Shown here in pieces: positions 37,638 through 41,516 of a stretch of 58,981 nt of DNA. The translations under genes and the position numbers were made by a program. Source of the stretch: Actinomycetota bacterium. GTDB taxonomy: Bacteria; Actinomycetota; Actinomycetes; S36-B12. Each line of letters starts with the position of its first letter. Position 1 is the first letter of the stretch. The notes under the pieces are model-generated. The model was not told where the DNA came from and ran no database searches. It saw only the letters and a program-made list of their open reading frames with translations. Location: contig SYJA01000036.1 of the NCBI GenBank assembly GCA_005798555.1, positions 1 to 58,981 on the forward strand, read 5' to 3'.

Positions 37638-40174
37638 ACCAAGGCGAGTCGGCATCCTTGCCGCCGGCCGGTCTGCTTGACCTAGACCCCAGTTGGTCGC
37701 GCCTAGTGGTGGCCTTGGACCACCTGGGGAGAAGTTGCACCTGGCACCTCCTTGATTCATTTGCCAACCGGCCCGATGCCACTGCTCGCCTGACCTTGCT
37801 TTGTGTCCATGGCAATCCGACCTGGTCGTACCTGTGGCGGCACCTGGTTCGAATGGCCCCGGCTGATGTGCGGGTGATCGCAGTTGACAATCTTGAGATG
37901 GGTTTCTCCGAGCGCACTGGCACCCACCGCCGGCTGGCAAGCCGCGTGGGGGACCTGAGCGGGCTCACCGAGCAACTTGGTATTACCGGGCCGGTGGTGA
38001 CGGTTGCCCATGACTGGGGTGGTCCGATTTCCCTAGGCTGGGCCCTAGACCACCTGCCCCAGCTCGTCGGTGTGGTTCTTCTGAACACCGCGGTGCATCA
38101 ACCAGCCGGCGCCCGCGCGCCGGCGCTGATTCGGCTGGCGCGCACCGGCCCGTTGCTGGCAGTTAATACGGTACGTACGACCGCTTTTTTGCGCGGGACT
38201 ACGGCACTTAGTGGCTCGAAAATGACCAAGGAAACAGCCAGGGCCTTTCGGGCGCCGTACCAAACTCCCGGCCGGCGAGTGGCTATCGGTGAATTCGTCG
38301 CCGATATTCCCCTCGAACCCGACCATCCAAGTGCCGATGCGCTCAATTCGATAGCCAATGGTCTTGCCAAGCTCGGGCCGGTGCCCATGTTGTTGCTCTG
38401 GGGGCCGGGGGATCCGGTATTTAGCGATCTTTATCTAGGTGATCTCATGATGCGGGCGCCGCATGCCGATGTTCATCGCTACGAAGGTGCTCGACATCTG
38501 GTAAGTGAAGATGATGATCGAGTGGTGCCGGATCTACTGCGTTGGGTTTCGGAACTTTCTACGGTGGCGCTCAATGACTCGCAGCCGTTGGCGGCAGCCC
38601 CTGCCGACCCGGTGCTCGGCACCAGACTTTGGGATGGCCTACACGATGCGGCGACGCAAGGGCCAACCAACACGGCGATTGTCGAAATGTCAGGTGCCGG
38701 TCGACGCGTCACCTGGCGCCAGCTCGCCGATAAAGTCGATGAATTGGCCGGCGGCCTGCACGCGCGCGGCATTTACCCCGGCGACCGGGTGGCCCTGCTC
38801 ATCCCACCCGGCGCCGATTTAATCGCGGTCGTCTACGCCTGCTGGCGCATTGGTGCCGGCGTTGTCATCGCAGATTCCGGATTAGGAGTCAGCGGGATGC
38901 GCCGGGCCATTCGGGGCGCCGCACCAGATCACGTCATCGGGATATCGCGCGGGCTGGCACTGGCACGAACCTTGCGCATCCCGGGCCTACGACTTTCGGT
39001 CAAGGAGCTGGCTGCGATCGCGCGACCGGGTGCACCGATGCCACCGGAGCCAGCATCGTCTGCCACCGCCGTCATCGTATTTACCTCCGGGGCCACGGGT
39101 CCGGCCAAAGGGGTTGTCTACCAGCAAGCGCAGGTCGCGGGTACCCGCGATGTCCTACAACGGCATTACGCAATGACATCAAGTGATGCGATAGTCGCTG
39201 CGTTTGCGCCTTGGGCGGTCTTCGGCCCAACCCTTGGGGTGGCGTCGGTGATCCCCGATATGGATGTCACCAAGCCGCGGACCTTGCAAGCCGTAGCACT
39301 CGCCGAGGCGACCGCGGCGGTCGGCGGCACGTTGCTGTGGGCCTCCCCGGCAGCATTAACCAATGTGATCCAAACCGCTAGCGAGCTGTCGACAGCGCAA
39401 CGGCAGAGTTTTAAGTCCCTGCGACTGGTGCTGGCGGCCGGTGCCCCGGTGCCATTGCAATTACTTGAAGAAGTTCAGGAGTTGGTGCCAGCTGCCGAAA
39501 TCCGAACTCCATACGGTATGACCGAGGTACTGCCGGTCAGTGAATCAGCACTGCCGCAGATTAGGGCAGCCGCTGGCGGCAATGGCGTGTTGGTGGGTCA
39601 TCCAGTCAGCGGTGTCAAGATTGCGATAAGCGCACTCGATGAGCAAGGCCGGCCGGCTGGCCCACTGAGCACCGACGTTGAAGTCACCGGCGAGATCTGT
39701 GTGCAAGCAGCGCATATGCGTGATCGGTATGACCGGTTGTGGGCTACTACCGCGATGGCAGCCCGTGACACTGGCTGGCACCGCACCGGGGACATCGGCC
39801 ATCTTGATGCCAGCGGCCGCTTGTGGGTTGAGGGGCGGCTCGCGCATCTGATTGTCACGGCTTCTGGCCCTGTTACCCCAGTTGGTGTGGAACAGCAGGT
39901 TCAGCAATTGCCCTTCGTGCGGTTGGCGGCGGCGGTTGGCATTGGCCCGATCGGCAACCAGCAGGTCATCGTGATCGTCACCACCTGTGACCAAATTGCC
40001 ATGGGGTTACTTGATGTGGACCGAACGCAGCTCGTGCGTGCGCAAGTCCGGGGCATTGAGATCGCAGCGGTCCTTGTGCGCGATGAGCTACCTGTTGACA
40101 TCCGTCACAATTCAAAAATCGATCGAACGGCCCTTAGCAAGTGGGCTGATGAGATCTTGGCCGGCCACCGCTGA
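37634..40174 (+). CDS. oleBC: OleBC fusion: beta-lactone decarboxylase plus beta-lactone synthetase
   Basis: 846 residues from GTG 37634 (GTGA overlap with oleA). Domain 1 (about 1-305) is OleB, an alpha/beta hydrolase of haloalkane-dehalogenase type: oxyanion HGNPTWSY, nucleophile D127 in AHDWGGP, His288 in GARHLVSED. Domain 2 (about 325-846) is OleC of the AMP-forming ligase family: TSGATGPAKG (484-493), TPYGMTE (625-631), HRTGD (716-720), and the C-terminal lysine K828. OleC closes the 3-hydroxy acid to a beta-lactone, OleB removes CO2 to give the cis-olefin. The fusion is the known actinobacterial form; in most proteobacteria they are separate. Confidence 0.9.
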   Translation: MNQGESASLPPAGLLDLDPSWSRLVVALDHLGRSCTWHLLDSFANRPDATARLTLLCVHGNPTWSYLWRHLVRMAPADVRVIAVDNLEMGFSERTGTHRRLASRVGDLSGLTEQLGITGPVVTVAHDWGGPISLGWALDHLPQLVGVVLLNTAVHQPAGARAPALIRLARTGPLLAVNTVRTTAFLRGTTALSGSKMTKETARAFRAPYQTPGRRVAIGEFVADIPLEPDHPSADALNSIANGLAKLGPVPMLLLWGPGDPVFSDLYLGDLMMRAPHADVHRYEGARHLVSEDDDRVVPDLLRWVSELSTVALNDSQPLAAAPADPVLGTRLWDGLHDAATQGPTNTAIVEMSGAGRRVTWRQLADKVDELAGGLHARGIYPGDRVALLIPPGADLIAVVYACWRIGAGVVIADSGLGVSGMRRAIRGAAPDHVIGISRGLALARTLRIPGLRLSVKELAAIARPGAPMPPEPASSATAVIVFTSGATGPAKGVVYQQAQVAGTRDVLQRHYAMTSSDAIVAAFAPWAVFGPTLGVASVIPDMDVTKPRTLQAVALAEATAAVGGTLLWASPAALTNVIQTASELSTAQRQSFKSLRLVLAAGAPVPLQLLEEVQELVPAAEIRTPYGMTEVLPVSESALPQIRAAAGGNGVLVGHPVSGVKIAISALDEQGRPAGPLSTDVEVTGEICVQAAHMRDRYDRLWATTAMAARDTGWHRTGDIGHLDASGRLWVEGRLAHLIVTASGPVTPVGVEQQVQQLPFVRLAAAVGIGPIGNQQVIVIVTTCDQIAMGLLDVDRTQLVRAQVRGIEIAAVLVRDELPVDIRHNSKIDRTALSKWADEILAGHR

Positions 40175-41142
40175 TGCGAGTACTCGTTACCGGTGCTAGC
40201 GGGTTACTAGGTGCTGTGACCGCCAAGGCGATCGCGGGCAGAGGCCACGAAATCGTGGTGTTTCAGCGTCGGCCAAGCGGCCTGCCATTTGATGAAGTCC
40301 GAGGAGACCTACTAGACGATGAGGCGCTCGTGCGTGCACTTGTCGGCGTCGATGGGGTGGTGCACCTGGCCGCCAAAGTGTCGATCACCGGATCGCGGTC
40401 GGAGTTCGAGTCGGTAAATGTGGAAGGCACCCGTCAATTGCTTCGCCTCGCGAAAGCGGCGGGTGTCCGCAATTTCGTCTACGTTTCGTCGCCATCGGTT
40501 GCCCATGACGGGATGCCGATCATCGGATCTGGTGCGTTGCCGGCTAACCCGCAGACGGCAAGGGGCTGGTATTCCGTCACGAAAGCCCAGGCCGAGATCC
40601 GCGCGCTGGCGGCAGACGAGCCTGATTTCGCCGTGGTCGCAATTCGTCCGCATCTGGTCTGGGGGCCAGGTGATGAGCAGCTCATTGGCCGCATCATTGC
40701 ACGAGCGCGCGCCGGGCGATTGTTTTTGATCGACCATGGTGTTGCGCTCATTGATACCACTTATGTCGAAAATGCGGCATCGGCGCTAGCCGCCGCCATC
40801 GAGCAGGTGGCCGAGCCTGAGGTGCACGGCCGGGCGTTCGTGGTGACAAATGGCGAACCCAGAACCGTTGCGGAGATACTAACGCAGATAACCCGGGCGG
40901 CCGGGTTGCCAGCCCCGACCCGAAGTGTGCCATTCGGTGCGGCATATCGGGCAGGGCAACTGGCCGAACTGGCCTGGGGCAGCCGGGGCGCCGAACCACC
41001 TCTTACCCGGTTCCTAGTCGAGCAATTGGCCACCGCCCACTGGTTTGATCAGCGCCCAACGCGCGCGGCACTGGCCTGGACACCGCAAGTGCGCCTGGCA
41101 ACCGGTTTCGAGCTCCTGACGAACTGGTATCAGCAGCGTTGA
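40174..41142 (+). CDS. oleD: OleD, NADPH-dependent 2-alkyl-3-ketoacid reductase
   Basis: 322 residues, extended short-chain dehydrogenase. The cofactor motif TGASGLLG (6-13), the S105/S106 pair, and the catalytic Y133-x3-K137 (GWYSVTK) are present. It reduces the OleA product to the 2-alkyl-3-hydroxy acid used by OleC. The one-base overlap with oleBC (TGATG) and the terminator 48 nt after the stop define a three-gene operon. Confidence 0.88.
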   Translation: MRVLVTGASGLLGAVTAKAIAGRGHEIVVFQRRPSGLPFDEVRGDLLDDEALVRALVGVDGVVHLAAKVSITGSRSEFESVNVEGTRQLLRLAKAAGVRNFVYVSSPSVAHDGMPIIGSGALPANPQTARGWYSVTKAQAEIRALAADEPDFAVVAIRPHLVWGPGDEQLIGRIIARARAGRLFLIDHGVALIDTTYVENAASALAAAIEQVAEPEVHGRAFVVTNGEPRTVAEILTQITRAAGLPAPTRSVPFGAAYRAGQLAELAWGSRGAEPPLTRFLVEQLATAHWFDQRPTRAALAWTPQVRLATGFELLTNWYQQR

Positions 41143-41190
41143 CCACGGCGTGGCGCTGCTACCTCATGGGCGCCGGTACCCGTAACATGA

Positions 41191-41230
41191 GAAAGGCCCC
41201 TCAAAGTATGAGTTTGAGGGGCCTTTCTTT
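41191..41230 (+). terminator. Rho-independent terminator of the ole operon
   Basis: Perfect 15-bp stem (41191-41205 with 41213-41227) and a 7-nt loop, followed by ttt. It can also end the opposing RNA, although the minus strand lacks a T run. Confidence 0.85.
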
Positions 41231-41447
41231 GAAGCCAGTTGCCTTCTGCCCGATTGCTCGGGGCGCCTGCTTCCGTTGCAGTTCCGCCGCGCTCGCTCCC
41301 CGTTTCCGGTTCACCAGTCGATCTTTTCTGACTTCTCACACCGTGTCCTGCAACCAACTCCGCCAGCACGCAGAGTTTCCGGAGGTCAAGCCTTCGGTTC
41401 GGCTGTCATTCTTCGGTCTGACCCTTGCCTTTCGGCTCAGTGGGTAA
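41191..41447 (-). ncRNA. Candidate structured stable RNA (about 255 nt)
   Basis: No plausible protein on either strand, yet dense local structure on the minus-strand transcript: GCC-GAAA-GGC (41427-41436) and CCG-GAAA-CGG (41300-41309) hairpins with GNRA loops, CCCGA/TCGGG around 41249-41262, a CTCTGC/GCGGAG hairpin at 41358-41375, a GTTGCAG/CTGCAAC long-range helix (41275-41281 with 41348-41354), and the 15-bp hairpin at the 3' end. A promoter-like TTGGCT-N16-TACTGT with AT-rich upstream sequence lies at the 5' end. It does not show RNase P, tmRNA or SRP signatures that I recognise; a 6S/Ms1-like RNA is the best comparison, unproven. Ends are estimates. Confidence 0.55.
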
Positions 41448-41453
41448 TGTCTA

Positions 41454-41516
41454 ACAGTACGCAAGTCAACACGCAAGCCAAATTCAAAAATATTTTGAAA
41501 TAATTTCTTTTGAATA
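41454..41516 (-). promoter_or_regulatory. Promoter with AT-rich UP-like element for the candidate RNA
   Basis: On the minus strand: a -35-like TTGGCT (41476-41481), 16-nt spacer, -10-like TACTGT (41454-41459). Directly upstream, 41482-41516 is almost all A/T in an otherwise GC-rich window and includes the palindrome TTCAAAA-ATA-TTTTGAA (41483-41499). Such A/T tracts mark strong stable-RNA promoters. A second -35 candidate, TTGACT, sits at 41464-41469. Confidence 0.45.

Follow-up and report, generated by a model that had tools for sequence, protein, structure and literature searches.

What kind of gene, if any, occupies the minus strand facing the end of oleD at this locus? The stretch of DNA that was analysed, the window, is 58,981 nucleotides long and forms part of contig C9 of the 2.09 Mb genome, 86% complete, of a freshwater actinobacterium. 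The named records nearest to this genome are Candidatus Nanopelagicales or acSTL-type Actinomycetota. An earlier note, made from the letters of the window, had proposed an unannotated structured RNA on the minus strand that might be a 6S/Ms1-like regulator or a new RNA class. The structured RNA is confirmed by our analyses and a new class is supported: covariation, conservation across many families and the lack of any Rfam match together indicate that it belongs to a family of structured non-coding RNAs in the class Actinomycetes that has not been described before. What is new is the RNA family: this is a bacterial structured RNA, but one outside every family that was testable here. The whole gene spans about 254 nucleotides (41188..41441, minus strand), as judged from relatives and the consensus structure, with its ends placed by the conserved promoter and terminator.

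When 99 relatives were searched at the DNA level, the region turned up in eight of ten genomes of the same genus, the window's own genome included; the two genomes lacking it are 71% and 75% complete. Shorter matches occur in many genera of the window's family, and one genome of that family (G010) carries three paralogues. The 3′ hairpin is common to all matched loci and the upstream motifs to most. In most loci of the window's family the RNA is tail-to-tail with oleD (here 40174..41142, plus strand, given as context only).

The predicted minimum free energy of the RNA is -108.5 kcal/mol, with a z-score of -4.5 on the minus strand compared with -2.8 on the plus strand. The z-score drops to -2.1 once the terminal hairpin is removed, so folding energy by itself is insufficient for the claim. 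Comparison between relatives carries much more weight. When 27 full-length RNAs are aligned, their consensus structure has 50 base pairs, with 97.7% of cells paired, and 31 of these pairs show the compensatory double changes that the earlier note had suggested looking for among relatives. None of 500 shuffles reached the observed covariation and slid controls pair at just 32-44%.

Three of the consensus hairpins carry GNRA tetraloops, all on the minus strand. The first is the 5′ hairpin GCC-GAAA-GGC (helix 2, 41427..41436, loop at 41433-41430), each of whose three pairs is double-changed; the second is CCG-GAAA-CGG (helix 8, 41300..41309, loop at 41306-41303), where the pair 140-149 swaps between C-G and G-C. 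These are the two GAAA loops read from the sequence initially, and they are joined by a GCAA loop (41257-41254) in the hairpin CCGA-GCAA-UCGG (helix 11, 41250..41261). A further hairpin, helix 6 of the consensus (41356..41377, minus strand), displays the sequence UGCUGG in its loop (41368-41363); this is invariant in the 27 sequences and offers, for the window's family, another candidate site of contact.

A long-range helix between 41335-41328 and 41238-41231 (minus strand) encloses the 3′ half of the body. Its existence, proposed at first sight of the sequence, is upheld by covariation across relatives and by the minimum free energy fold, although it has eight pairs and not seven. The helix is absent from the alignment-based fold, yet its arms co-vary between subgroups (GAAGUC/GGCUUC, GAGGUC/GACCUC, AGAUGG/CCAUCU, GGUUGG/CCAACC and AGAUUGAG/CUCGAUCU). 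The mean run of complementarity between the arms is 6.1 within sequences versus 4.9 between sequences, and none of 2000 shuffles did as well.

The gene also has a promoter of its own. Nearly all relatives, across families, keep a -35-like element CTTGYG (CTTGCG at 41472..41477, minus strand) and, 18 nucleotides further on, a -10-like element that here reads TAGACAT (41447..41453, minus strand; family consensus TAGAMMT). The pattern CTTGYG-N16..20-TAGAMMT has a single match in the whole of its own genome, at the RNA. This pair of elements replaces the one suggested earlier, TTGGCT-N16-TACTGT, which relatives do not conserve. The predicted transcript start moves with it, from the vicinity of 41447 to approximately 41441, since it now follows from the conserved -10 element at 41453-41447 and not from those hexamers. 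The A/T-rich block upstream (41478..41516, minus strand), which resembles an UP element, was rightly picked out and is present at all loci of the genus.

At its 3′ end the RNA closes with the predicted terminator hairpin (41190..41228, minus strand), which faces the convergent oleD and has a stem of 15-16 bp where 15 bp had been counted. Over 49 sequences 98.5% of its cells are paired and 8 of 15 pairs are double-changed. It displays a near-invariant 7-nucleotide loop, CUCAUAC (41206..41212), that recurs on unrelated stems in many families; wholly changed stems that keep this loop include CCCGGGAA/TTCCCGGG, CCAGCA/TGCTGG, TGGGA/TCCCA and CCTCCAT/ATGGAGG. Among the variants are CCCUUAC, which is found in one family (f25), and the rarer CUCAUGC, CGCUUAC and CUAAUAC. 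The conservation of the loop is partly ascertained, because both the search pattern and the model reward it; independent support comes from the promoter and the changing stems. A regular-expression search located CTTGYG-N18-TAGAMMT at 61 of the 103 loci whose loop is canonical and at one of nine model matches with other loops; that one (CCCTTAT) is of the f25 type, and once it is set aside none of the remaining eight has the promoter.

How far does the family extend? A covariance model of the 3′ hairpin (R1) matches 135 of 395 genomes of the class at E<=0.01, a figure that overstates the spread of the RNA because some of the matches are plain palindromic terminators, with neither loop nor promoter (six such loci were seen). 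Tightening the threshold to E<=1e-8 leaves about 70 genomes, by a count made by eye, and these represent at least 16 families. A phylum-wide sample yielded a single weak match outside the class at E<=1e-7. Among GTDB genome contigs the hairpin core was located in 72 stretches, and every record whose title is informative belongs to Actinomycetota, although a few titles look mislabelled (e.g. a Rubrivirga). Carriers include Phycicoccus, Knoellia, Pedococcus and Nocardioidaceae. A viral origin was rejected, as the core occurs in no viral contig searched.

Across families the RNA measures 190-330 nucleotides, and its common parts are the promoter CTTGYG-N18-TAGAMMT, the 5′ GNRA hairpin and the 3′ terminator hairpin with its near-invariant loop. 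The bodies are unrelated and the stems changed; the promoter and the 5′ GNRA hairpin mostly precede the loop. Outside the window's family the neighbouring genes vary, e.g. groEL, a DUF445-like gene or a glycosyltransferase. In one Propionibacteriales metagenome-assembled genome (L091:1-1600) the RNA occurs twice, the two copies being almost identical and lying about 1.2 kb from each other with small ORFs in between. RNA families this broad seldom escape notice. The matches are weak or missing in the groups that we take as Streptomyces and Mycobacterium, which would explain why this one was overlooked, and in open-access papers our literature search for such a family returned Ms1 and unrelated work only.

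What might such an RNA do? Its gene is a separate unit, with a conserved promoter, GNRA-capped covarying helices and a near-invariant 3′ loop. Our best explanation, to which we tentatively give nearly even weight, is that this new family comprises abundant, trans-acting RNAs in which the terminator loop serves as a contact element for a conserved partner. A strong promoter would see the RNA made in quantity, and the 3′ hairpin would stop its transcription as well as that of oleD from the opposite side, making a bidirectional terminator possible. The RNA would then act in trans, which is favoured because it stands in independent gene contexts in other families. Its exposed CUCAUAC loop may contact a protein that binds RNA, or else an RNA target, with the body as a scaffold that can vary freely. 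In an ordinary terminator the loop sequence would not be expected to persist; even so, the CUCAUAC loop could be retained for termination or stability instead of for a partner. If the preferred reading holds, the loop is a concrete bait for that partner, and Phycicoccus, Knoellia and Pedococcus are cultured carriers.

Two further candidate roles for the loop were rejected. It resembles the anticodon arm of a CAU tRNA (U33-CAU-A37, against C-U-CAU-A-C in the loop); this mimicry is ruled out by CCCUUAC in family f25. Kissing between the loop and the body of its own RNA is likewise not supported, the longest pairing being 4.98 compared with 5.00 in shuffled sequences.

An extension of the preferred reading comes from repeats upstream of the promoter. 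Clusters of DnaA-box-like sequences (TGTGGACAA/TGTGGATAA) precede the RNA at 19 loci, among others, often 11 bp apart and in helical phase with the promoter. At 21 loci, nearly all from families other than the window's, there are 2.38 DnaA-box-like 9-mers (one mismatch allowed) per 250 nucleotides upstream, compared with 0.04 in shuffled sequences and 0.02 downstream, an enrichment over shuffles of more than 50-fold. Over 58 loci the boxes cluster about 53, 74, 84, 96, 109 and 119 nucleotides from the -35 element, spacings close to whole helical turns. DnaA may bind these boxes, and their phasing suggests that in many other families expression may be tied to DnaA or to the replication state. 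The window's genus is almost devoid of such boxes, having lost them or never had them, and they are therefore not evidence for the window's RNA itself. We regard as possible, though rather doubtful, a class-wide RNA that is coupled to replication, with transcription set by DnaA, a dedicated partner for the loop and a role as global regulator parallel to Ms1; its DnaA component concerns the many families outside the window's own. If the boxes are real, they connect an RNA gene with the initiator of replication.

Could the RNA be Ms1 itself? Ms1 binds the RNA polymerase core and its gene adjoins that of a HAD-IB hydrolase (PMC9130861), so we located this hydrolase (SCO3558 type) with its NCBIfam model. 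No HAD motif was found near the RNA in the RNA loci scanned. The HAD-IB gene of the window's genome is elsewhere, on contig C26, and the gaps on either side of it, in this and a sister genome, measure 26-66 nucleotides, which makes the site too small for such an RNA. Beside the HAD-IB genes of what we take as Mycobacterium and Streptomyces, and of two further families, the gap is 270-470 nucleotides; at eight loci the gaps contain CCCACGCGG and CACGCTTGGTARCC blocks and were taken as putative Ms1. A model (R2) of these eight sequences, which come from the HAD loci and not from named Ms1 records, recovers its source loci and offers new Ms1 candidates in three genomes. It matches neither the new RNAs nor anything in nine genomes of the same family. 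At least seven genomes, those three among them, have both the new hairpin and an R2 match. Identity with Ms1 by descent is thus supported neither by synteny nor by the R2 model, coexistence speaks against it, and the new RNA is a family separate from Ms1; of the likeness to Ms1 raised in the earlier note, the part that implies descent is not supported. The empty site on C26 points, as an observation in its own right, to an apparent loss of Ms1 in a small-genome lineage, and a simple model of CCCACGCGG and CACGCTTGGTARCC could map Ms1 in the absence of synteny.

An analogy of function is a different matter. An RNA that is not homologous to Ms1 may still bind the RNA polymerase core or holoenzyme and tune transcription, and in the window's genus, where the Ms1 locus is empty and the Ms1 model finds no match in the nine genomes, it could be the sole bearer of that role. 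The size, the GC-rich folded body, the strong-looking promoter of its own and the fast-evolving sequence would all fit, and the CoRP RNA of Corynebacterium shows that RNA polymerase-binding RNAs other than Ms1 do arise (PMC11077062). Against this, at least seven genomes host both this RNA's hairpin and an Ms1 model match, and the multibranched consensus offers no rod with a central bubble. We therefore consider this reading unlikely, though it deserves to be taken seriously.

A less probable explanation is that the RNA is an antisense-type sRNA that uses its terminator loop as a seed for mRNAs, the complement GUAUGAG containing a start codon. An invariant loop on a stable stem is what seed-loop sRNAs display, and the CCCUUAC of one clade could follow a changed target. 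However, the dnaA regions of 18 genomes contain no consistent complement, and the loop was rejected as a dnaA antisense.

It is very unlikely that we are looking at a mere terminator, one that acts in both directions to separate oleD from an antisense leader and is otherwise without function. Such a terminator would account for a palindromic hairpin between convergent units, as seen in most loci of the same family, but not for the covarying body, the conserved promoter or the unrelated neighbouring genes in other families. The hairpin can also act as a plain terminator, because at three f25 loci a second copy, about 4.1 kb away and without the RNA body, follows a lipoprotein-like gene; TGTGG repeats precede this copy. 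Finally, an mRNA for a small protein is exceedingly improbable: ORFs of 75-102 amino acids overlap the region in three frames, but single-nucleotide indels between relatives of the same genus break these frames in the 27-sequence alignment and paired columns show compensatory changes, in agreement with the original impression that no ORF here is credible.

The comparison with known RNAs places the family on its own. Searching the window region against Rfam 15 with cmscan, a check that had been proposed at the outset, gave chance hairpin matches only at E values up to 10, and at the gathering threshold the loci of 18 relatives contain tRNAs only; tmRNA, SRP RNA, riboswitches and the other Rfam 15 families have no match in the region or at these loci. 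The judgement from the sequence that this is not RNase P, tmRNA or SRP RNA is thus sustained. RNase P RNA is likewise a large stable RNA with GNRA loops, and is ruled out here by the lack of an Rfam match in the region and by the genome's own match on contig C46. That RNase P RNA is itself divergent, with two matches that are both partial and score under the Rfam gathering threshold (C46:6468-6653).

Another actinobacterial RNA with conserved hairpin loops is 6C RNA (RF01066). Its loops are C-rich and so differ from CUCAUAC, and it too has no Rfam match here. Like 6S RNA (RF00013), the new RNA is abundant-looking, structured and equipped with its own promoter. It differs from 6S in having no Rfam match and in its separate 3′ hairpin, and the 6S rod with a central bubble is not seen in the 27-sequence consensus, which is multibranched with only a doubtful 2-bp closing helix. 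The CoRP RNA is a further structured actinobacterial RNA outside Ms1 and 6S; at 516 nucleotides, between tRNA genes and restricted to its genus (PMC11077062), it is set apart from the new RNA by this description and not by sequence. Unlike Ms1 (MTS2823 / scr3559; PMC4191392, PMC9130861), the new RNA is not beside a HAD-IB hydrolase and is without the CCCACGCGG and CACGCTTGGTARCC blocks, but the two have much in common: both are actinobacterial, Ms1 is about 200-300 nucleotides long and has its own promoter, and both show weak sequence conservation across families.
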